From the NCBI GenBank assembly GCA_001775055.1, contig MFBU01000020.1:1-55088 (forward strand): 55,088 nucleotides of DNA, written 5' to 3'. This document shows, in pieces, positions 21,843 through 34,963 of this stretch (the first letter of the stretch is position 1; every line of letters starts with the position of its first letter). The DNA comes from Candidatus Curtissbacteria bacterium RIFCSPLOWO2_02_41_11 (lineage in GTDB: Bacteria > Patescibacteriota > Microgenomatia > Curtissbacterales > GWA2-41-24). Below the pieces are notes generated by a model, which was not told where the DNA came from, ran no database searches, and worked only from the letters and a program-made list of their open reading frames with translations. A program made the translations under genes and the position numbers.

Positions 21843-22460
21843 TTAATCCGCGTCTTTCGTCTCCAAGACGAAAGAATACGAAAACCACCAGAACACAAAA
21901 AACCAGATTAAGACAAAAGTCAGGGAAAACCAGTCATGGAATATACCGGCTGCCGCCGAACCTACAAAAACCGCAAAAAAACCGACAATAAAAAGCCTCA
22001 AAAAGTTTATTAAATATGTCCCTAAAACCCCAATGACCAGCACTTCAAAACGGGAAACTTTGGAAAACTTACCCTGAAAACCGGTTAAAAAGCTGGCCAA
22101 AAGTAAAACCGCGCTCTGCCAGCCCAGACAATTCCACTGCAATTCTAAAAAGATTCCTTCCAGCCAGATTCCCCTTGCTGTTGGGGTAGCCGAAACCGGA
22201 AAAAGCGAAAATAATCCGGCTAGTGCCCGCGCCTGATAAGGCACAATAAATTCCTCCAGCGCCCGATACAGCTTCCATTTCAAAAACAAACTGGTCAAAA
22301 ACTCGTTAAAAGTCGACATAAACGGCAGCATCATTAATAAAAGAGCCGCCATCATAAACAAAACCGAAAACTTTGACCCGTGAACATTCGAATCTGAACG
22401 AATTTCAGGCGAATTATCGCGAATGAGCGAATGGATCATATCTTCTTTTAGTTCAGGCAC
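21843..22460 (-). CDS. Exosortase/archaeosortase family transpeptidase-like membrane protein
   Basis: Candidate catalytic triad: WNCLGWQS (Cys), NFLRL (Arg), FHDW (His) in a multi-TM protein. Confidence 0.75.
   Translation of the reverse strand: MPELKEDMIHSLIRDNSPEIRSDSNVHGSKFSVLFMMAALLLMMLPFMSTFNEFLTSLFLKWKLYRALEEFIVPYQARALAGLFSLFPVSATPTARGIWLEGIFLELQWNCLGWQSAVLLLASFLTGFQGKFSKVSRFEVLVIGVLGTYLINFLRLFIVGFFAVFVGSAAAGIFHDWFSLTFVLIWFFVFWWFSYSFVLETKDAD
21852..21874. repeat. 10-bp perfect hairpin at the exosortase 3' end
   Basis: TCTTTCGTCT-CCA-AGACGAAAGA. Confidence 0.85.
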
Positions 22461-22473
22461 TAGGCATTAGTCG

Positions 22474-22845
22474 TTAGGCATTAGTTTTATATCGTTTTAG
22501 CTTACCTATCAGACTATTAAGCATCTTCATTACTTCATCTAGCTGACTAGAAACTGTTTCAAAATCTTTTTGTCCAACTAAACCAAGTTCTTTCGCTATC
22601 AAAAGTTGAGTCTCAAGTTCCGCACCTGAAGCAAAAGCAATTTGCAAAAACTGAATATATTCAAGTCTTCTGTGCCTCGCATACCCTTCAGCAATGTTCG
22701 ATGGAATCGAAATCGCACAACGCCTCATCTGTGACGTCAATCCATAAACCTCCTCTTTGGGAAATTTTTTGGTCACTTCATACACATTTAATGCCAACTT
22801 AAAGGCCTTTTGCCAAACAATTAAATCTTTATAAGACCTAATCAT
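22474..22845 (-). CDS. Four-helix-bundle protein (S23/IVP-like)
   Basis: YKDLIVWQKAFKLALNVYEVTKKFPKEEVYGLTSQMRRCAISIPSNIAEGYAR; GGAGG upstream of ATG 22845. Confidence 0.9.
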   Translation of the reverse strand: MIRSYKDLIVWQKAFKLALNVYEVTKKFPKEEVYGLTSQMRRCAISIPSNIAEGYARHRRLEYIQFLQIAFASGAELETQLLIAKELGLVGQKDFETVSSQLDEVMKMLNSLIGKLKRYKTNA

Positions 22846-22863
22846 TTTCTCACCTCCTTCCAT

Positions 22864-22932
22864 TGCCTAATGCCTACTGCCTATTGCCTAATGCCTACTA
22901 TCCTACTGCCTACTGGCCTATTGCCTATTGCC
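22864..22932. repeat. Heptameric short tandem repeat (TGCCTAN)n
   Basis: tgcctaatgcctactgcctattgcctaatgcctac...; also encodes the C-terminal tail of the giant ORF. Confidence 0.9.
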
Positions 22933-25900
22933 TCAATCACTACCGGCGCCAGCCTCCTCGGCGGATCATTCCCCATCCCTCGCTGTTTCTTTCTCTTCAA
23001 TCCGCGTCGTTTCCACCATGAAACGATCTTCGGCAAAAACACCATCCCGGGCAGGGCAAAAATGGCAATTTCCGGCACGGGCAGAGCGGTTATTTGGATT
23101 ACTAGCCAGGAATTGTTACTTGTTGCTGTATCAGCAGTACCAGTATTTACTTTCAGCTGGGCATCCAAATTGCCATCAGCCGGTTCAGAAACCAGGGCAG
23201 TACTGCGAACCCGGCTGACTGTGGCTGAAGTAGTAGTGACTTCGCCAACACCGCTATCCAGTCTGGCCAAAGCAGTGGTAGCACCGCCTTTATTATCATC
23301 ATAGAGAATGTCAGACTCAAAATAGAAAGCCTTGGTACCGGTAAAATTGGTGGAAGTATAATTATTCTTATAATTCAAACTTGTATAAGTTGAGCCGGTT
23401 ACAGAACCCTGTGTATTATTGTATTGCTGCATTGTCTCCAAAGCCGTTACCCCGTTGGTCGCGTCACTCTGATCCAGAATAATCTTGGCACTGGCAATGT
23501 TGCCAGTGCTGTTGGAAATTACTGCAGGAGACACTTTCGTATTAACTCTATACTGGGTTGACCCACTTAAAGTAATTGTTCCGCTTCGCGCTCTTGTATA
23601 GACATCAGATGACGATACCTCAGATCCCGAGACAGGACTACCACCTGTGGTGTATAAAGATGCAACGGAAGAAATACTCGCTCGGGCAATTGTCTGGGGA
23701 GTTGAGCGGCTTGAACAAGTTGCATTAGTACACTGGATGAATTTGAGGTCGCCGTTGGTGCTATCATAATATGAGATTTTGCAGTCTGTCGTGGCAGAAC
23801 AGAAGATTGAGGCATATTGCCCAACATTGCCTGTGGTGTCAAGACTTTGGGCCGTTGATTTACTGGTACAATCAGCATTAGTACACTGGATGAATTTGAG
23901 GTCGCCGTTGGTGCTATCATAATATGAGATTTTGCAGTCTGTCGTGGCGCTGCAGTAAATAGAAGGATTTTGCCCAACATTGCCTGTGGTGTCAAGACTT
24001 TGGGCCGTTGATTTACTGGTACAATCAGCATTAGTACACTGGATGAATTTAAGATCACCGTTGGTAGCATCATAATATGAGATTTTGCAGTCTGTCGTGG
24101 CGCTGCAGTAAATAGAGACATTGACAAAGCCACCCGAGCCGATGGTGGTATCAAGAGTCTGGGCCGTTGATGTCGTTGAACAGTCGGCGGCTTTGCACTG
24201 AATGAATTTAAGACTTGGGTAGCTCGTGGCATATGCGATCTTGCAGTCTGTAGAAGGGGCAGATCCTAGACAATCAATGTCAGTTCCCGTTGATTGACTT
24301 GTGGTGTCAAGACTTTGGGCCGTTGATTTACTGGTACAATCAGCATTAGTACACTGGATGAATTTAAGCATGGTGTCATTGTAGTCAGAGTATGCGATCT
24401 TGCAGTCTGTCGAGGCGCTGCAGTCAATTGACGTAAACCGGCCGGCAGTAGTATCAAGAAGCTGTGCTGTTGATTTAGTTGAACAGTCGGCGGCCGTGCA
24501 CTGGATGAAACTTAATTTGTCTTGACTTTCACCATATGATATTTTGCAATCTGTAGTTGTGGAACAGTATATCGAATCCTCTTGTCCCCGAACTCCGTTT
24601 GCGTCAAGTATCTGGCTCGTGGCATAGCTAGAGCAGTCAGCTGAAGTACACTGGATGAAATCTAAGAAACTATTAGTCGCATCATAATATGAAATTTTGC
24701 AGTCGGTGGAAGGAGCCGTCCCAAAACACTGAATTGAAGTATACTGACCAACATTCTGTGAAGAACTGCCGAGTGTCGCCTCAAAATAGGCGGTTGGCGT
24801 CGGCGACCAGACCGTACTTGCGTTATTAGTACAGCCTGTGCCTGTAGCCGTACTGCCGTAACAATACTGTTTCTGATTGGTTAAAGTAGCATAGCTCGTC
24901 CCCGTAATACTCTGCTTATCCCCCACCTCCACCTGCGTTTCGGTTTTGGTCAGCAGTGTGTTGTCTGTTTGGGTAATAATCAGCCGCGCCGCATTCATTG
25001 AAGCCGTCGTACCGACATCGCCACGCAAGCGCACAGTATAATCGCCGCTTGAGAGCGAAATCGCGCTTGAAGTCCTGACTCGGGTATACGAAGTACCGGT
25101 AGCTATTATTTCAACATTCTGCTTAGTGCCGCTTGAACTGTATAAGTCGGCAATGGCTGTTGCCGTTCCGGTATCCGGCGTCTGACCACTGCCCGTAGTA
25201 CATTGGTCGTCATTACAATCATAAAAATTTAAATCCCCCCCCCAGGAAATTCTAGTATAGGCAATTTTACAATCCGTTGCGGCACTTGTGCAGTTAATGC
25301 TTGCCCACTGGCCGCTTCCGCTTGTCGCGACAGCCGTAGTCACATTGCCGGCGCTGCAGGCCCCATTGGTACAGGCGGCAAATTTAAGCTTGGCATTGGT
25401 CTGATCATAATAGCTAATTTTGCAGTTAGTATTAGTTGGACAAGAGATGCTGCTGTATAGCCCAGTGTTAACTCCTAGGTTTGTGTCACAACCTGTTAAA
25501 ACACAACTCGAGTAGCCATCCAGATATTGGGGAGAATTGGCTGTACTACAACCGCTATTTTGACACTGATTGAATTTTAAAGCCGAGTTAGTGCTATCAT
25601 CATAGCTAATCGAGCAGAGTCCTGAAACTGGACAATCAAGGGAAGTATAAAGGCCAACAATACCAGTTGTATCAACTGCCGCAAAAGTCCCGCTAGAACA
25701 AGCACTTCCTCCCGAAAAGTTGCACAGGGCGAATAATAAATCACTAGTAGTCCCATCATAATAGCTAATCTGAGAACGGGTAGAATAAATAGCATAAATC
25801 GAGCTGAACGCACCCCGATCAGCCGTGGTGCTGCAACTTGTCAATACACAGTCAGTGTAACCATCTAGAATAAGAAGTTCCCAACCGAGAGCAGGATCGC

Positions 25901-28900
25901 CGTAAGCCTGCTTCAAGGCAGTGTTGGTTACATCATAGTAAGAAATGTAGATGTCTAAATTTCCAATCGCATAAATTGAGGTATACTGCCCGACATCACC
26001 TGTTGAATCAACCGTATAAACGGTACCTGAAGAACAATCAGCAGCATCGCAATCTGCGTACTTTAAATCGCCGTTTGTCGCATCATAATAAGAAATCCGG
26101 CAATCATTTGCTCCCAGATTGCATTTAATCGAAGGATATTGGCCCACATTAGCTATAGTGTCGCAGCTTGTCAAGACACAGCCGCTGGATCCATCAAGCA
26201 GTGTTTTGGCAAAACCGCCGGTTGCCGGATTGCAGTCTGTGTCGGCGCAGTCAACAAACCTCAGGGCATGATAACTACTGTCATAATAGGCAATCTTACA
26301 GTCGGTTGAAGATGGGCAATAAACACTTGTACCTTTACCGACAGCGCCGTCTGTTCCGGAAACCTTCATCACTGCCTCGAAATTAACATTGACCGTACCG
26401 TCATATTTAGTCGGATCCCAATTAACAAGTCCTAAAGAATTGTCAGTTGGGGCAAAACTCTGACCACCGCCTGTAGCTACCTGATCAATAATATTAATCT
26501 GCTGCTCAATAGCCGGCGTCGAAGCATCTGCCTGCACCTCGTTTGATATTGGGAAAAAGGCCAGATAGTTTAAAAGCAGGGAAATTATCAGCAAAAAAAT
26601 AATTGCGCTTCTGGCCGCATACGGCAGTCTTCTTGGCGAAATTTTATAGCCGGAAAGCGGATTAAAGGCTGTCGCCAAAGCGACACGCGGATTTCCGCTG
26701 ATATCGGCGCTAATCCGCGCCGCGCTGATGAACGCGGAGTCGGCGGTAATCGGCGAGGCCGCCGGGCGGCCTAATACCCTAAATCTCTCAATCCATCTGT
26801 AGAATCTGGCTTTACCGAATACATCGGTGATTAAGCCGGTTTTGGGCGTTCGAAACCACGGTCCTTCTTCTTTTTCAAAAAGCGCTTTAACCGCCGCATA
26901 AGCCTGAAACGGCACCAAGATATAGGATAAAAGCACAAACGAGGCCACTCCCAGATAATCGCGCTCGTCCGATTCCTCCAAAAACAGCCCCACCAGATTC
27001 ATTAAGGGCAGCGAAAGCAGGTTGACAAAAACCAAACTCCAGCCCCAGGCCGCTGTCCAGAATGGCAGCTGCGCATGGACAACGGTTTCGGCAATAAACC
27101 AGGAAAAAGTGCCGATTATAAAAAAGGCCGCCTGCAGATAGTAAGGCCCAAGGTACAAAAACTCAAACTTTTCCCTTTTCGTCATGTTTGGCGTCGCAAA
27201 AAGCCTCTTCCACATTTTGCGCACATTGTAGGTATGCCCTTCGGCCCAGCGCATGCGCTGGCGGATTAGCCTTCTGACCGTTGAAACCGCCTCGGCCGGC
27301 GCCTGAATATAAGGCGTGAAGGCAATTTTATAACCGGCCTCGTAAAGCTTTAGGGTCAATTCCAAATCCTCGGTAATCGAGGTTCCCCAGCCGAACTTTC
27401 TCAGGATATCGGCACGGATGCAAAAGACCGAACCGGCAATCATTTTTAAGCCTCCGTAAAGCTCAATCCCCGCTCGCTCAACCACATAAGAACCCGCGTA
27501 TTCGGTTCGAACTCCCCTCGTCACCCAGTTTTCAGATTTATTCAAAACGTGCCACTGGTAACCCTGGACCGCAGCGATTGGGTTGTCTAACGCTGAAGGA
27601 CTAACGTCTAACGCCGCTTCATTTGCGTTTGCTTTAGTCGTTAGTCGTTGGTCGTTAGTCGTCAAAACTTGGAAAGTTTTGACGAATTGCGCAAGCGTAT
27701 CCGGAAAAGGCACAAAGTCGGCGTCAAAAACCGTTACATATTCTGTTCTTGAATCACTGTATTCAAGCGCCTTGGAAAGTGCCGCTCCCTTAAATCCTGC
27801 CCGGGACGCGCGGTGGATTAAAGTCATTGCCGGCGATTGAGAATGATTGGGTATAAATTCGCAAACTTCCTCGCCATCCCTGCCTTTTGTCTCTCTCAAT
27901 TTACCGTTGCGATCGCCCAGAAACTCTTTGATGATCTGTGTCGTCTCATCGGTCGAATCGTCGATAATAATTACTTCAAAATTAGGATAATCAATCTCCC
28001 TGCAGGCGCGAAGAATCCGCTCGGCCACTCTTTTCTCGTTATATAAAGGAAGATGGATCGAAACAAACGGATAGCGCGCCAACTTTACTTCATCAAGATT
28101 GGGCTGCATGGCCAGAGGTTGTCCCCCAGTTGGCGAAATTATCTTAAAAAGATTAATTCTGTCCAAAAACTTGGCCAGTTTGCCGGCATCTGCCCCTTTT
28201 TGACGATTATCGTTCCGGCTTTGGCCGGGATAAGCCAGCACAATAATCAGCGAATAGTAGTATTTAAGCGAATAAAGAAAGAACAAAAGGCCAAAAGTTA
28301 GGGCCACTGTCGGGAAAAACATGGCCGGGCGAAGCAACTTGTCAACTTCAAAAATGTAAAGGGTAAGAATTAAAAGAGGTATAGCCAGAGGCCAGGTTAA
28401 TGGAGTTCTGATAACAAATTTGGGAATGGTCGCAAACGGCGCATAAAGGAAACGCCAGCGGGAAGGCGCAGGCATGGCGGCCGTTTCGTATTCGGGGGCA
28501 GGCGCAACTTCCGGCTGCACCATGTAGCCCTGGGCAAAGACTCTTCTTTTCTCCTGGGTATTGAGGTTTTCGCGCGCCAAGAGATTTTGGACTGCATGAT
28601 GTCCGGCAATCGGCCTGTCCTCAATTCTGGGAAGCTGGGCATAGAGCTGATGGCAGGAATAATCCGGTCTTTTGCGCACCAAATCCAAAATTGCCTCGCG
28701 AGTCTCCTGGCTTATTGCCCGATGGTGCTCATATCCCTTTTTATACAGCCTCCGCAATGATTCGATTATCCTTCCCTCTATACCCTCTAAATCCTCTAAC
28801 CCTTCTGTTCCCTCTTTATATCTTCTCAGCCACTCATAAAAAGTCGGTCTGGATACTTTCCAAGTTTTACAAACATGGCTGATTTTGGCACTTTCTTTAA

Positions 28901-29357
28901 GGTACTGCTCAACGATCTTGGCACGGTAAGCCGGACTAAGTGCCTGCGCCATGATTGTTTTAACCGGATGTTCTAGGCTGAACCTGTGGCGAAGCTCTTT
29001 TGTCTGCAGTTCGTATCGAAGAAGAACATTGTAGACACCTTTTAAAGAGACCTTAAATCCCCTATCGGTAAGCTGCTTCCATATTATATGGACGCCTAAG
29101 TCGGGGTTTTTAATAACCAAATCCAAAACCTGCTTTTCAAGCTTGTAGGAAAGGCGCCTGTGGTGGTTTTTGCCACGCTTGTAGCCGTTTACAAGGGAAC
29201 GGCTGCCGCTTTTGGGGTCTTTCTGGTATTTTTTAATCCATATGGAAAGAGTCTGCCGGCTTACTTTGTATTTTGAGGAAACTTCACTTAAGGTTTTATT
29301 TTTATTTAAAACCTCTCTGACAGCCTTAAGTTTGCTTTTAGGGGAAATCCTCCGCAT
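22881..29357 (-). CDS. Giant fusion: duplicated transposase-type HTH modules + TM + processive GT2 + two 7-blade beta-propellers with beta-sandwich modules + PEP-like sorting signal
   Basis: Single ~2160-aa ORF; KVSRQTLSIWIKKY and KVSRPTFYEWLRRY HTHs; IIDDSTDET, DADF, TEDLELTLK, QRMRWAEGHTYN; 7+7 SIxC...DCKISYYDxTNxxLKF repeats; VPEIAIFALPGMVFLPKIVSWWKRRGLKRKK C-terminus. Confidence 0.8.
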   Translation of the reverse strand: MRRISPKSKLKAVREVLNKNKTLSEVSSKYKVSRQTLSIWIKKYQKDPKSGSRSLVNGYKRGKNHHRRLSYKLEKQVLDLVIKNPDLGVHIIWKQLTDRGFKVSLKGVYNVLLRYELQTKELRHRFSLEHPVKTIMAQALSPAYRAKIVEQYLKESAKISHVCKTWKVSRPTFYEWLRRYKEGTEGLEDLEGIEGRIIESLRRLYKKGYEHHRAISQETREAILDLVRKRPDYSCHQLYAQLPRIEDRPIAGHHAVQNLLARENLNTQEKRRVFAQGYMVQPEVAPAPEYETAAMPAPSRWRFLYAPFATIPKFVIRTPLTWPLAIPLLILTLYIFEVDKLLRPAMFFPTVALTFGLLFFLYSLKYYYSLIIVLAYPGQSRNDNRQKGADAGKLAKFLDRINLFKIISPTGGQPLAMQPNLDEVKLARYPFVSIHLPLYNEKRVAERILRACREIDYPNFEVIIIDDSTDETTQIIKEFLGDRNGKLRETKGRDGEEVCEFIPNHSQSPAMTLIHRASRAGFKGAALSKALEYSDSRTEYVTVFDADFVPFPDTLAQFVKTFQVLTTNDQRLTTKANANEAALDVSPSALDNPIAAVQGYQWHVLNKSENWVTRGVRTEYAGSYVVERAGIELYGGLKMIAGSVFCIRADILRKFGWGTSITEDLELTLKLYEAGYKIAFTPYIQAPAEAVSTVRRLIRQRMRWAEGHTYNVRKMWKRLFATPNMTKREKFEFLYLGPYYLQAAFFIIGTFSWFIAETVVHAQLPFWTAAWGWSLVFVNLLSLPLMNLVGLFLEESDERDYLGVASFVLLSYILVPFQAYAAVKALFEKEEGPWFRTPKTGLITDVFGKARFYRWIERFRVLGRPAASPITADSAFISAARISADISGNPRVALATAFNPLSGYKISPRRLPYAARSAIIFLLIISLLLNYLAFFPISNEVQADASTPAIEQQINIIDQVATGGGQSFAPTDNSLGLVNWDPTKYDGTVNVNFEAVMKVSGTDGAVGKGTSVYCPSSTDCKIAYYDSSYHALRFVDCADTDCNPATGGFAKTLLDGSSGCVLTSCDTIANVGQYPSIKCNLGANDCRISYYDATNGDLKYADCDAADCSSGTVYTVDSTGDVGQYTSIYAIGNLDIYISYYDVTNTALKQAYGDPALGWELLILDGYTDCVLTSCSTTADRGAFSSIYAIYSTRSQISYYDGTTSDLLFALCNFSGGSACSSGTFAAVDTTGIVGLYTSLDCPVSGLCSISYDDSTNSALKFNQCQNSGCSTANSPQYLDGYSSCVLTGCDTNLGVNTGLYSSISCPTNTNCKISYYDQTNAKLKFAACTNGACSAGNVTTAVATSGSGQWASINCTSAATDCKIAYTRISWGGDLNFYDCNDDQCTTGSGQTPDTGTATAIADLYSSSGTKQNVEIIATGTSYTRVRTSSAISLSSGDYTVRLRGDVGTTASMNAARLIITQTDNTLLTKTETQVEVGDKQSITGTSYATLTNQKQYCYGSTATGTGCTNNASTVWSPTPTAYFEATLGSSSQNVGQYTSIQCFGTAPSTDCKISYYDATNSFLDFIQCTSADCSSYATSQILDANGVRGQEDSIYCSTTTDCKISYGESQDKLSFIQCTAADCSTKSTAQLLDTTAGRFTSIDCSASTDCKIAYSDYNDTMLKFIQCTNADCTSKSTAQSLDTTSQSTGTDIDCLGSAPSTDCKIAYATSYPSLKFIQCKAADCSTTSTAQTLDTTIGSGGFVNVSIYCSATTDCKISYYDATNGDLKFIQCTNADCTSKSTAQSLDTTGNVGQNPSIYCSATTDCKISYYDSTNGDLKFIQCTNADCTSKSTAQSLDTTGNVGQYASIFCSATTDCKISYYDSTNGDLKFIQCTNATCSSRSTPQTIARASISSVASLYTTGGSPVSGSEVSSSDVYTRARSGTITLSGSTQYRVNTKVSPAVISNSTGNIASAKIILDQSDATNGVTALETMQQYNNTQGSVTGSTYTSLNYKNNYTSTNFTGTKAFYFESDILYDDNKGGATTALARLDSGVGEVTTTSATVSRVRSTALVSEPADGNLDAQLKVNTGTADTATSNNSWLVIQITALPVPEIAIFALPGMVFLPKIVSWWKRRGLKRKKQRGMGNDPPRRLAPVVIEAIGNRPVGSRIVGIRQ
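23685..24140 (-). repeat. Near-identical 153-bp tandem coding repeats (last three propeller blades)
   Basis: gtcgtgg...cagaa/cgctgcag landmarks at 23788, 23941 and 24094, exact 153-bp spacing. Confidence 0.9.
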
Positions 29358-29489
29358 GACTGAAACTCTAAATAACAATACTAATTTAATGTTAAAAACT
29401 ATGGAAACACTTTGTCAAGTCCAAGTTATAGGAATTTCAAGGCTAAAACCGGGGGAAAAAGAAACCTTATTAAATCAGATCAAATAAAA

Positions 29490-30650
29490 GATAATGTCCT
29501 ATAAAGGATAAGAAAAATAAGTTTTTCGCAGTATAGTTTTATTTAACACATCTTGTAGTAATAGTTACTCGGTTGATTTAACACTTAAAAAATTTTAAGA
29601 ATTAAATTTTAAAAAAACATATCGGAATGTTCGTCTATAAAAAGACTATATTAATAGGCTAAAACATATATTTTGCGTATTTGGCAATCGCAAGACGCAG
29701 GTAGCAACAGCTATTACTTCGGGCCTTAGTACCCATAAATCTTTACATAATTTTTAACAAAATTACACGCAATATTTGAAAAAGTTAAACAAATACTCCG
29801 GTTGTTTCGGGTAAAAAGCCGTTAAAATAGAATAAGTAAGCTTAAAGAAGCTATATTTTTATTAAAAAGTTGCAAATTTTATTAAAAAATTAAAAAATTT
29901 AGCTATAAGCTCAAACATATTACTCTGATAGTAAATGACTATTAGCTGTAAATCACAAAATTATAAGTTTACTGTCACTAAAATGTAGAATACGCTAAAA
30001 AATGAAAATAATAATTACTCAAGCGATTATTATTCCGTTACAATAAGCTAAATTTTATAAAATTACAGTTTGTATATGTAACCGAACCACTTCTTACACA
30101 CATACCAATTACTATATAAAAATATCTATCAAACCCTAGTATTAGACTTAAAGACCCTTTTTCCAACAATATTCACTAATATCGGTTTAATTTTGTTAAA
30201 AATTGAACAGTTTTATCTCTCAATTTTTTTGCGTTAAATATATGGAAATAATCTGTTTATTTCATGTAACTTATAAGAATATAATTAATGCCTTAGCTTA
30301 TAATTTATCCAAATCACATAAATACCTATATAAATAGAATTACGGCTTTATACTTTCTACATCATAGAACATCTTTTTACAACCTTTTTATAACAGATTT
30401 TTATTAGTTTTCTTTTTAAATATTTCTATAAAGCAGGATTTATTTTAAAAATAATTTTATAATTAATTTTTAGCATCGAAGTTTATGTTGGTTAAATTAA
30501 TTATTTTATTATAGCTTACTCCAGTACTATTTTTTAATTTTCAGCCTTTTAAAAAACCCTAATATTTGTCTTTATGTATGACAACTTAAGATAAGTTATG
30601 ATATCTTTTGACCCTCTTGCTTTAATTGGTTTTTAACAATAAACTACTAT
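29490..30650. other. Long AT-rich ORF-free intergenic region
   Basis: No ORF of 60 aa or more; visibly AT-rich compared with flanks. Confidence 0.75.
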
Positions 30651-30656
30651 CACCTC

Positions 30657-30688
30657 ATCTTGCGATCTCACCTATTCAATCTTGCGAT
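30657..30688. promoter_or_regulatory. Direct repeats of ATCTTGCGAT spaced 22 bp
   Basis: ATCTTGCGAT at 30657-30666 and 30679-30688; inverted partial copy ATCGCAAGA at 29687-29695. Confidence 0.45.
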
Positions 30689-30730
30689 ACAGCCGCCTCA
30701 AGGTCTGCCAAAACTGCCTAGAAAGATTAA

Positions 30731-30928
30731 ATGCTTTTATACTGGGGTATGTTCACTGCCGGTTTCACTATCGGCGCTATTTTTTCTTTTATGACTTTTG
30801 CCGCTAAAAAACCGGAAGAGGATGCGGAATATGAAGCTGAAAAATTACCCGACCAGAAACAACAAGTACCCGAGTACCCGATACTCGACAAGTCCTATCC
30901 GTCGTATAGGTCATATAAGTCCAATTAG
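30731..30928 (+). CDS. Small single-TM protein
   Basis: MLLYWGMFTAGFTIGAIFSFMTFAAKKPEEDAEYEAEK; C-terminus SYPSYRSYKSN encoded by a tandem repeat. Confidence 0.5.
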   Translation: MLLYWGMFTAGFTIGAIFSFMTFAAKKPEEDAEYEAEKLPDQKQQVPEYPILDKSYPSYRSYKSN

Positions 30929-30930
30929 TC

Positions 30931-31461
30931 CTACCTCCTTCTTGCCTCCAGCCTTCTTTTAAAAAGGTTTTCCGTGTACCCGCCTTGTTCAACAAAGCTC
31001 TTATCGAGCGCCTGAAGCTGACGGTCAAGCAGAAAATTTGCCTGATGGATAAGACAAATTAGACAATTGGCAGCGCGTTCTGGGTTTTCTAGATAGGACA
31101 TATAGGTCGTATAGGACTTATCGGACTTATAAGCCAAGGCGCGCACTTTGCGTGCTTTAGGATGATCTTTTTCCCAAAGCTCCAATCCTCGTTGCCTTAA
31201 AAAGTCTTCATAATCCGCAAGTAGCTCTTCCAAACTTGCCCGAGCCACACCAATTAGCTTAATCTCTGTCTTTTCAGAAGTCCCGGATGCTTGCGAACCT
31301 TCAGCGATGTTCTGTCTCCCGCTTCTTGCAGCCTGAACCATTTGATCTCGCGTACGCGAATACTTATCAATGTACCGTTTGCAAAACTCAACCGTCAGAT
31401 CGTAGATAATCGTGGCCATCTGGTAAGATTTAAGGTTACGATAACCGCCGTGAGCCTTCAT
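30931..31461 (-). CDS. Four-helix-bundle protein (S23/IVP-like), suffix-domain variant
   Basis: YRNLKSYQMATIIYDLTVEFCKRYI...RDQMVQAARSGRQNIAEGSQA. Confidence 0.88.
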   Translation of the reverse strand: MKAHGGYRNLKSYQMATIIYDLTVEFCKRYIDKYSRTRDQMVQAARSGRQNIAEGSQASGTSEKTEIKLIGVARASLEELLADYEDFLRQRGLELWEKDHPKARKVRALAYKSDKSYTTYMSYLENPERAANCLICLIHQANFLLDRQLQALDKSFVEQGGYTENLFKRRLEARRR

Positions 31462-33584
31462 GAATTCGACCTATTGAACCTATATGACTTATATGACTTA
31501 TAGGTCTTATTAAACACCCAAGCCACAGTCCCAAGGGTAATTAGATAGCCTAGCCAAACCGATAAAGGCCGGCCGTAAACTAATTCTATTTCAAATTTGC
31601 TCGCCTTTTTAGGTACAAGCACCATAAAATCCAAGGGGTCTTTAATTACCTTCCATCCCCGATTCCTAACCTTCCAACCGGGATCATAAGTCTGCTGAAA
31701 TAAAACGGCCTCGCCGTTGCCGACTTCACCGGAAATCTGATATTTACCATCCACAAGCTTTTTGACCAAAAGCCTTTTCTCTGCTTTTTGTTCAAGCCAC
31801 TCAAGATAGGCAAAAATCGGCTCCTTATCTATGGCATTATATGGCTTCTTAATCTGTTTGAAGGATTCGGCATCAACTACTTTGGCCAAAGAATCATTTT
31901 TAAGAGGAATATCAAAATAAATATCACCGTCTTCCGTAGCTATTTCCGAAGCTATAGCCTTAAATTTCTCCAACGGTACTTTATAATCTTTATAAGGTTC
32001 TGCAGAGCCAGGCGTTGTATAAACAAGTTTGCCGATGTTGGCAATCTTAAGCCAAGCTAAAGTAATTGACCCATCCTGTCCATTAGCCGTGTGATAATAA
32101 ATATGCTCAGGCCAATCATGCGTTGATGATTGAAAAAGAGCTCCCCTGAGCTGTGGGACCGGTTCAAAAAAATTAAGCCAAAAGCCGTAATTTCCCGGCG
32201 CCAGAACCCGCTGATCGGTTCCTACGGTTAACTCCTTCAACTTTTTGGCCACTTTAAACTCAACCGAGTTTTCAATCCGGCCGACTTTGCCATCCGTTAG
32301 GTCGCGGGTATACTCTGGCAAAACAGCCAACAACTTCACTCCCCACCAAACTAGTCCGACAACCGGCAAAACGGCAACTGCAACGGCCAAAACCAAACTT
32401 GGGTACTTAATTCTCCCTTCTCTTCTTGTCAAAAATAAAAATAAATTAGATATGAGAACACCAGCTAGAATAGCAAGTGCTAAATCAACTTCTGTATTCA
32501 AACGCAGGGCCTGAGGCACATATTCGAGGCGGTTTTCTCCCGAGGCATAATAGATAAAAACGATCGCAAAGGCCATTAAAAACCAAAAAACCGCCAAGGG
32601 CACACCGCTAAACTTACCGGTCAACCTCTTAACCATTAAAAATACACCTACTAGAATTGCCAAAACGGGAATTAATCCCCAAGGGAAAAGCGCCAACCAA
32701 TTGGTTAAAGCTCCCCCACCCTCCTTAAAAAAGGTTCGCAAAAACGGCCCATTGTACCAAAAAGCCACCAGTCCCAAACTTAGAACAATCAGGGTCAGAA
32801 GACCCTTACCCAAATCAATGATTTCGGTTTTCTCCCGGGTTATGGCCGCCAGAAAAATGGCCAAAAGTAATAAAACAGCTGCCCACAAGACTATGGCATT
32901 GATCAATGCAATCAGCCCTAAAAAGAAACTGGCCAAAAAAAGATTGGCAAAATTACGTTTCTCAACTAATCTTGAAGCAAATAATCCAAAGATCGGCAAA
33001 AAAACCAGAGCTAAAATGTGCGGGCCTTCCCCCCAGCGCACAAGAATTGCAAATCTTCGCGGCTCCCAAGAACCGCTCAGAGTATCCTGGGCAACCTCGT
33101 TAAAAATTAAGGCAATTATTGAAGGTAGAAAACTGTAAAAAAGTGCCGAAACTAAAGCGCCAATTTTACTCTTTCCTATCTGCCAGACAAAAAGATAAAC
33201 AGAAACCGGTACCAAAACGTAACCTGCGCCCGTTAGCACTCTGTAGGCGTGGGCAAAACTGAAATTTAAAACATGATGCAGCAAAACTTCTAAAGCCGGC
33301 AAAAGAGGCGTATAGAAGACATGCCAAGGGTATCCCAGATACCAAAGCGGCTGCCATCCCGCCCCGTGGGACTCTACCCAAAACTTGGCCATTTGAATAT
33401 AGGAAATCTCAATTGAGCCTAAATTCTGGTTAAATTCGCCGCTAAACCAGTATCGAATAAGTACGAGGTTGAGATAAATAATCGCACCAAGAGAAATAAA
33501 AACAATCAATAGGTGGATAACAATTGACAATTGCCGCCAGAGGCGAGCCTCGTCTTTGACGGGACCTTTAACAATTGACTTCAT
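31458..33584 (-). CDS. Large multi-TM membrane protein with YfhO-like C-terminal region
   Basis: 708 aa; QQTYDPGWKVRNRGWKV...MVLVPKKASKFEIELVYG; C-terminus TYKSYKSYRFNRSNS is repeat-encoded. Confidence 0.65.
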   Translation of the reverse strand: MKSIVKGPVKDEARLWRQLSIVIHLLIVFISLGAIIYLNLVLIRYWFSGEFNQNLGSIEISYIQMAKFWVESHGAGWQPLWYLGYPWHVFYTPLLPALEVLLHHVLNFSFAHAYRVLTGAGYVLVPVSVYLFVWQIGKSKIGALVSALFYSFLPSIIALIFNEVAQDTLSGSWEPRRFAILVRWGEGPHILALVFLPIFGLFASRLVEKRNFANLFLASFFLGLIALINAIVLWAAVLLLLAIFLAAITREKTEIIDLGKGLLTLIVLSLGLVAFWYNGPFLRTFFKEGGGALTNWLALFPWGLIPVLAILVGVFLMVKRLTGKFSGVPLAVFWFLMAFAIVFIYYASGENRLEYVPQALRLNTEVDLALAILAGVLISNLFLFLTRREGRIKYPSLVLAVAVAVLPVVGLVWWGVKLLAVLPEYTRDLTDGKVGRIENSVEFKVAKKLKELTVGTDQRVLAPGNYGFWLNFFEPVPQLRGALFQSSTHDWPEHIYYHTANGQDGSITLAWLKIANIGKLVYTTPGSAEPYKDYKVPLEKFKAIASEIATEDGDIYFDIPLKNDSLAKVVDAESFKQIKKPYNAIDKEPIFAYLEWLEQKAEKRLLVKKLVDGKYQISGEVGNGEAVLFQQTYDPGWKVRNRGWKVIKDPLDFMVLVPKKASKFEIELVYGRPLSVWLGYLITLGTVAWVFNKTYKSYKSYRFNRSNS

Positions 33585-34963
33585 TCTTCCCCTTCATTTT
33601 TTAAAATCATATAAATCAAAATTGCCATAAAAAATAGACTAAGTGCCACTCCCAGCCATAACTGCCAGCCATCTGTATGCTGTCTGACGAGTCCAAAATT
33701 TTTTCCGGCAAAAGCCAATGTCTCTTGTCTGTCGGCAAGTACCCCCATTTTAATTTTTGTCCAAAGTCCATTGGGACCGGATATTAAAAGAGTCACCCAT
33801 GGGGAAACCACAAAAGCGAGAATTGCCAAAAGCAAAAAGCTAACTACGCCAAAAATCAGAGCCCCCAAGGCTTTACCGGCCGCAGACCAAGTCTCTACCG
33901 CCAATGTTTTGACTAAACGCAGTCTATCGATAATCGCAGTTAAGGTTAAAGCCGAAACGATTGCCGCAAACATATTTAAATTAGGAACAAGCCTTTGGGG
34001 ATGTGGCAACAATGACCGTTGATACCAAAGCCACTCGCCGACAAGTATTAGAAAAATTATAAAAAGCAGAAAGGAAAAAAAGATTGGCTGGCGATCTTCC
34101 CTCTTGCCAAAGAAAACGAAAGAGGCAAAAAGTGTCAAAAAGCCAATAGTCACAGGTAGTGGAAATAGAAACTTTAGATTGACTTTGAGCTGGTTGAAAA
34201 AACCAATCAAAGTCTCCTGCCAAAAACTCGGTGTGTACCAAAAGGATACCAGGCCCAGGGATATCAGAAGTACCAATAAAAACCGCTTGAATTTAATTCT
34301 AGCATTCCCTAAAAACAAATCAGTGAGCGCAACGACTGTTAAAACCAAAAACAAACTCAGCGCTTGGGATCGGCTGGCAAGAAGGATAAAAGCACAAGCC
34401 AAAACAGTTATAACTAAATCACTTGTTTTGTCCGACTTGATATAGCGCAAGAAAAAAAGGGCGGCAAAAGCAATCAAGGCTAAAGCCAGAAAATGGGCGC
34501 CGTCGCCGTATATTATCGTAAAAAATGATTTGGCGGAAATTAATTGGCTCTGATAGCGTCCTGAAAAGAAAAGGGACAAAATAAAAATAGGCATAGGCGG
34601 AATTAAGTAAAGAACAGAAGCTAAAATGGCCGTTACGCGCCTTTTGGTTAAATCATAAACAAAAAGATAAATCCCGACCGTAGAAATCATCAAAGAACCA
34701 ATAAAAAGAAATCTAAGAGAGCTATCGGCATTAAAGCCAAAGATCGAAAGTACCGATATTAAAAATGGCACCAGCGGAGTAAAAAAGACTTCTTCAAAGG
34801 TAATTTTGGCAATAATCGGCCAAAAGATAACGAATGAAAGCAGGACGAAAACTCCGATATAGATAAGATTAATCCGATCAAAAAGGATAACGGGGTAACC
34901 ATTTGTTGCTGATCTCCTATTAAACCAAAACAGCGGACGCTTGGGAATGTTTTGGGGATCCAT
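33581..34963 (-). CDS. Multi-TM membrane protein
   Basis: 460-aa hydrophobic ORF, ATGA overlap with the 31458-33584 gene. Confidence 0.6.
   Translation of the reverse strand: MDPQNIPKRPLFWFNRRSATNGYPVILFDRINLIYIGVFVLLSFVIFWPIIAKITFEEVFFTPLVPFLISVLSIFGFNADSSLRFLFIGSLMISTVGIYLFVYDLTKRRVTAILASVLYLIPPMPIFILSLFFSGRYQSQLISAKSFFTIIYGDGAHFLALALIAFAALFFLRYIKSDKTSDLVITVLACAFILLASRSQALSLFLVLTVVALTDLFLGNARIKFKRFLLVLLISLGLVSFWYTPSFWQETLIGFFNQLKVNLKFLFPLPVTIGFLTLFASFVFFGKREDRQPIFFSFLLFIIFLILVGEWLWYQRSLLPHPQRLVPNLNMFAAIVSALTLTAIIDRLRLVKTLAVETWSAAGKALGALIFGVVSFLLLAILAFVVSPWVTLLISGPNGLWTKIKMGVLADRQETLAFAGKNFGLVRQHTDGWQLWLGVALSLFFMAILIYMILKNEGEE

Follow-up and report, generated by a model that had tools for sequence, protein, structure and literature searches.

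Several described systems share part of their design with a giant gene of Candidatus Curtissbacteria bacterium RIFCSPLOWO2_02_41_11, which joins transposase-type helix-turn-helix (HTH) units, a membrane-embedded family 2 glycosyltransferase (GT2) and a large surface domain in a single open reading frame (ORF). The gene lies on contig MFBU01000020.1, and the whole 55,088-nucleotide (nt) stretch analyzed is referred to here as the window. In PEP-CTERM/exosortase (EpsH) systems, the substrate ends in a PE motif, a transmembrane (TM) helix and a basic cluster, the layout also seen in the tails of the surface halves described below; these systems further share with the present locus an exosortase bearing Cys, Arg and His and a link to polysaccharide synthesis (PMC1569441). 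However, the apparent substrate here makes up the C-terminal half of a protein in which a putative HTH regulator and the GT2 are found as well, its likely signal peptide is internal, its tail reads VPExx rather than PEP, and an exosortase gene sits beside each of many loci.

Processive GT2 synthases (BcsA, PgaC, NodC and the XrtG/XrtP-associated enzymes) share with the giant protein the DxD, TED and QxxRW motifs, the gating loop and the flanking TM segments, and the XrtG and XrtP families in NCBIfam show that an association of GT2 with exosortase was already known. In contrast to these synthases, the GT2 here is fused to HTH units in front and to an exported protein behind. The bipartite domains of transposases (IS481/IS3/IS630, Tc3, MuA, TnsB) and the PAX paired domain likewise combine an HTH with a second helical module, in tandem; here there is no DDE catalytic domain, the units are fused to a membrane enzyme, and the candidate site lies in the promoter of the gene itself instead of in a terminal inverted repeat. 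ToxR and CadC carry a cytoplasmic HTH and an extracellular part in one chain, whereas the giant protein has another HTH type, an enzymatic middle, an apparent release by signal peptidase and a predicted target set limited to itself. Two products of one chain are also split at an internal signal peptide in the cytochrome b/c1 polyprotein FbcH, although the proteins are unrelated and FbcH has no DNA-binding part. The parts are of known kinds, namely an exosortase system, a processive GT2 and a transposase-type DNA-binding domain; a description of such an HTH-GT2-surface protein was not found in the literature searched, outside which most subscription papers lay. We favor, at a probability of roughly 0.6, the reading that the giant gene encodes an autoregulated polyprotein.

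A fusion conserved across families

The frame is open for 2158 residues from the ATG at 29357 on the minus strand, and an alternative TTG start 21 nt upstream would add seven residues. Pfam places two HTH stretches at the N-terminus (HTH_28, HTH_Tnp_1, HTH_23, HTH_32) and a GT2 at about residues 430-780. A first-pass annotation, made from the letters alone, had described one ORF with two transposase-type HTH units, no DDE domain, a TM GT2 with TED and QxxRW motifs, a second TM segment and surface repeats. The ORF, the Pfam matches and the motifs confirm this layout: transposase model matches stop at the N-terminal part, the GT2 has TED and QRMRW as well as DAD and a BcsA-like gating loop (WFRTPKTG), and the repeats fall into two sets of exactly seven. 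Three features had been missed, in that a cognate exosortase is encoded next door, the gene has a predicted operator-like promoter of its own, and the second TM segment resembles an internal signal peptide, the product being probably a polyprotein.

With DxD, TED, QxxRW and TM helices all present, the GT2 part is predicted to be a processive synthase. Its motifs (DAD, TED, QRMRW, WFRTPKTG) are invariant in six relatives, and its nearest solved structures are cellulose synthases. Two TM segments lie ahead of it, and therefore the HTH part should be in the cytoplasm together with the GT2, with the surface domain outside by topology.

The HTH units are tandem, paired-like and of transposase type. 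Models of IS481 and IS3 transposases in NCBIfam match only this N-terminal part and score far below their cut-offs (91 bits against 224 for IS481); identity as such a transposase was rejected, as no DDE catalytic domain is present. In a structure predicted from the single sequence, an HTH followed by a second helical module occurs twice, with a predicted local distance difference test (pLDDT) score of 75-87 over the first HTH and low values elsewhere. The best Foldseek matches, the DNA-bound domains of Pax5, Pax6, TnsB, Tc3 and MuA, agree in kind, and the modeled fold appears to resemble these bipartite domains, at weak E-values. A search of the HTH sequence against the PDB gave no significant match. 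Among the HTH proteins collected, the units are laid out as HTH-w-HTH-w, HTH-HTH-w or a single HTH-w.

Relatives are denoted by genome (G numbers) and by fetched locus (L numbers), and C10 is a contig of the gene's own genome (1.08 Mb, 25 contigs) that holds a second giant-gene copy. Relatives within the same family occur in G001, G003, G004 and G013. A 374-genome sample of the class yielded 22 matching genomes, and a 380-genome sample of the phylum added matches in families beyond that class; the genomes are uniformly small at high completeness, which suggests the Patescibacteria/CPR. Altogether, 29 ORFs carry HTH and GT2 in a shared frame, and they are spread over many genera, several families and more than one class of this phylum of small genomes. 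Wherever a GT2-clade ORF has its 5' end complete and unbroken, the HTH part is there too; the GT2 ORFs without it are contig-end starts or broken-frame fragments, with the exception of L036, where HTH-TM and GT2 are encoded in two ORFs with a 4-nt overlap. Peptide-pattern searches found only distant GT2 proteins in the collected genome contigs and no relatives in viral contigs.

Third codon positions diverge far more than first and second positions through HTH1, HTH2 and the linker, and therefore the N-terminal part is translated and constrained; codon-position identities were used in place of the ratio of nonsynonymous to synonymous divergence (dN/dS) because dS was saturated. An accidental fusion, an assembly error or a decaying gene could be read from L036, L084, L087 and L142, where the frame is broken between or inside modules (by assembly error, decay or switching). 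We regard this as very improbable in view of the 29 fused ORFs in many genera, the coding constraint across the junction, and the conserved promoter and partner gene. Because the fusion recurs in many genomes, it is neither a chance event nor an assembly join, and these explanations were rejected. Separate HTH, GT2 and surface genes in relatives, which the first-pass annotation named as evidence that would count against it, are not the rule: against the 29 fused ORFs stand L036, with HTH and GT2 in two ORFs, and a few fragmented loci with broken frames. Of its two proposals, a repeat-mediated fusion is not supported, as the fusion recurs across families and classes; a domesticated transposase domain tethered to the membrane is supported by the bipartite-type fold (again at weak E-values) and by an own-promoter element that tracks the HTH part.

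Several further forms were seen. HTH-TM-surface proteins without a GT2 are encoded at L093:3049-10560 and L140:5390-6859, and they share an MG2-like extracellular domain with the GT2 forms L037 and L039. In the own genome, L012:1-750 and L155:2-1120, both at contig ends, encode additional C-terminal surface halves that carry VPE/LPE tails; this genome therefore probably contains further copies beyond the two seen whole or partly. Heptanucleotide repeats (TTAGTCG, TGCCTAC) occur within the giant gene or at its end (window 27634-27662 and 22864-22933), and inserts like these are read in frame as unusual peptides: VGSGESVVGSQNVASTNYELQTTNSA in L012 and a close variant of it in L040, as well as LPAGRQ and STSSGQ.

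A promoter element specific to HTH genes

The gaps upstream of HTH genes are AT-rich and long, with a median of 653 bp compared with 46 bp for neighboring genes (p=7e-16). Blast comparison of these regions revealed a short common block near the start codon. Nearly all contain TTGAC, then 17 to 20 nt that hold TTACCCAT or TTCCCAT and end in ATGT or TTGG, then TAACA; the outer parts resemble -35 and -10 boxes, and the spacer between them is conserved. This element often stands 35-37 nt ahead of the start codon, which implies a leaderless or short-leader mRNA. Equally distant flanking DNA shows no such conservation (identity of 0.26-0.30 versus 0.48 for the element).

The element is highly specific. 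The site at the giant gene is the sole match in the window within two mismatches (0.17 expected). When a sequence-only model of the element was run over 351 genomes, the 28 best matches (E<0.004) all fell at HTH genes or, at L075, in duplicated upstream regions; the only ones in the own genome were the two at its HTH genes. As the model had been trained on the HTH loci themselves, the test was repeated with each family left out; the element was recovered every time, with 17-38 bits for true sites against at most 15 bits for sites outside HTH gene regions. Since the site-bearing genes are HTH genes only, there is little regulon beyond self. The element also stands ahead of the GT2-less HTH genes L093 and L140 and of the lone HTH ORF L144.

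L077:10517-11472 and L075:11767-12571 each have two copies of the element in non-coding DNA, at a spacing of 0.8-0.9 kb. At L077, the second site is equally strong and lies 0.9 kb further upstream, while at L075 the copy belongs to a duplicated stretch at a contig end. A search of the window's 1.5-kb upstream region for direct and inverted repeats gave no convincing array, and k-mer repeats inside single upstream regions gave a mixed result.

Element and HTH part vary together. Distances among elements are correlated with those among HTH parts (Mantel r=0.58, n=32, p=2e-4), also in the 17 loci with a GT2 (r=0.51; 0.53 as a partial correlation on GT2), and are uncorrelated with GT2 distance (r=-0.04). 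They also move together: in G004, the copy at the locus syntenic with the window has window-type DNA at -1125 to -997, C10-type DNA from -76 to +564, and window-type DNA again thereafter. The C10-type stretch comprises the element and the HTH part, which were exchanged as one cassette, much as one would expect of a regulator and its operator. A paralogue pair in G001 is 80% identical in the linker/TM region and 78% in the GT2 but 30-36% in the HTH part, fitting paralogue-specific HTHs. The giant gene has, as would an autoregulator, a conserved site in its own promoter that is linked to its DNA-binding part.

These data also bear on whether the HTH part is instead a protein-interaction module that positions the glycan synthase, with the promoter element being read by another regulator or a sigma factor. 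Some membrane-anchored HTH domains do bind protein instead of DNA, as in RodZ, whose cytoplasmic HTH binds MreB, and an element overlapping the promoter boxes could mark a special promoter class. However, the element is specific to HTH genes, is present without the GT2, and varies and moves with the HTH part and not with the GT2; moreover, the domain is transposase-like, not RodZ-like. We consider a protein-interaction role unlikely.

The surface half and its exosortase

A basic n-region and an h-region are present in the TM segment ahead of the surface domain, and an [AVST]xA site follows in 21 of 26 relatives (46% in the control, p=3e-4); typical candidate cleavage sites are VQADA|S, TSYA|S, ALA|SP and MAQA|P. 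A signal-peptidase-like site after the last TM segment suggests that this segment is an internal signal peptide and the product a polyprotein. No such site was found in the GT2-less L140. The two runs of seven repeats of ~51 amino acids (aa) in the surface domain suggest two seven-bladed propellers; a single-sequence model of the repeat region has a mean pLDDT of 45, at which a fold search is without meaning.

In the window protein, and in almost every relative whose C-terminus is complete, the chain ends with a (V/I)PE motif, a hydrophobic stretch and a basic cluster. Together with the signal peptide, which would be internal and not N-terminal, these are the features of a PEP-CTERM-type substrate. 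The Pfam and NCBIfam search of the giant ORF gave no match to a PEP-CTERM family model, and the protein is therefore PEP-CTERM-like, not a member of a named subfamily. The adjacent exosortase, encoded downstream of the giant gene, matches TIGR04178 at 26.3 bits (cut-off 23), and its residues C111, R155 and H175 are invariant in 14 sequences. An exosortase gene with conserved Cys, Arg and His adjoins most complete giant-gene loci, and among the 351 genomes the HTH part occurs in 20, the exosortase in 21 and both in 16 (about 1.2 expected). G109 and G178, the two genomes with GT2-less HTH proteins, have no exosortase match; thus it is the GT2/tail form that the exosortase accompanies.

An uncut membrane one-component regulator of the ToxR or CadC kind, whose extracellular repeats sense a signal and relay it to the HTH, the GT2 being an inserted module, would agree with a topology of HTH inside and surface domain outside, and with L093 and L140, which keep an HTH-TM-extracellular arrangement. 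Yet most GT2 forms have signal-peptidase-like sites, which together with the exosortase tail suggest that the surface half is released, and the promoter element was found only at the HTH genes themselves. We consider such a sensor unlikely.

Table 1. Features of the giant-gene locus (window coordinates)
Feature	Position	Strand	Remarks
Non-coding upstream region	29379-30930	none	1.55 kb, AT-rich, 28% GC (window 40%); longest gap in window
Conserved promoter/operator element (candidate) TTGACAAAGTGTTTCCATAGTTTTTAACA	29390-29418	minus	TTGACA -35-like, TAACAT -10-like, conserved spacer
Giant ORF	22881-29357	minus	2158 aa: HTH x2, TM, GT2, TM/gate, signal-peptide-like segment, surface domain, sorting tail
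HTH 1	29220-29339	minus	residues 7-46
Second helical/winged module 1	28980-29183	minus	residues 59-126
HTH 2	28785-28931	minus	residues 143-191
Second helical/winged module 2	28533-28745	minus	residues 205-275
First two TM segments	28266-28406	minus	residues about 318-364
Processive GT2 catalytic domain (predicted)	27213-28076	minus	DAD, TED, QRMRW
GT2 C-terminal TM region	26808-27182	minus	gating-loop-like WFRTPKTG
Internal signal-peptide-like segment	26523-26639	minus	residues about 907-945; basic n-region, h-region, EVQADA|S
Surface domain	23079-26522	minus	residues 946-2093, about 1150 aa
First set of seven ~51-aa repeats	25188-26372	minus	candidate seven-bladed beta-propeller
Second set of seven ~51-aa repeats	23682-24764	minus	structure model of low confidence
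C-terminal sorting tail VPEIAIFALPGMVFLPKIVSWWKRRGLKRKK	22986-23078	minus	VPE-hydrophobic-KRR type
Four-helix-bundle (23S rRNA IVP/bAvd-like) gene	22474-22863	minus	between giant gene and exosortase gene
Exosortase/archaeosortase family gene	21843-22460	minus	TIGR04178 above cut-off; C, R, H triad

Four-helix-bundle genes flank the giant gene on both sides, the second at 30931-31461. Two large multi-TM proteins, one with a weak PTPS_related match, adjoin it at 31458-34963, and the same two stand beside relatives in G004 and G003 (L038:4151-7758, L040:405-3312).

A proposed autoregulated polyprotein

In the reading we favor, the tandem HTH units would remain cytoplasmic and bind the element between the -35-like and -10-like boxes of their own promoter. 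Binding would most likely repress that promoter, giving feedback on a costly product of 1100-3600 aa; in our judgement repression is somewhat favored, because the site lies inside the core promoter, and activation improbable. The membrane-embedded GT2 would make or extend a surface glycan. The last TM segment before the surface part would act as the internal signal peptide, with signal peptidase cutting after AxA to free a surface half of repeat/lectin-type adhesin domains that is held by its C-terminal VPE-TM-basic tail. The neighboring exosortase would then process this tail, probably onto lipid or glycan.

Several observations weigh against this reading. The dyad symmetry of the element is not above expectation from column composition, and each Foldseek match of the HTH model, itself built from a single sequence, is non-significant. 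Five of the 26 junctions have no good [AVST]xA site, and a strict AxA test is weaker (8/26 versus 12% in the control, p=0.008). Another factor could read the element. The HTH part and the element lie side by side, and their correlation could stem in part from linkage alone; linkage is not the whole account, because the element is conserved across families and equally distant flanks are not.

More tentatively, the observations may be joined in one scheme: the gene is leaderless or has a short leader, the nascent HTH part binds its own promoter in cis during membrane insertion, and the product is cut into a synthase-regulator and an exosortase-anchored adhesin. Operator and HTH would together be an exchangeable specificity cassette by which paralogous surface systems in one cell are kept under independent control.

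The giant gene ties gene control, glycan synthesis and cell-surface display into one polypeptide, and places a domesticated transposase DNA-binding domain where it would not be expected. It supplies a candidate operator and a candidate cleavage site, both testable, and a partner sortase. Its hosts are small-genome, probably host-dependent bacteria with an almost unknown surface biology, and the cassette-like exchange of HTH and promoter site suggests how near-identical surface systems in a tiny genome may stay separately controlled.

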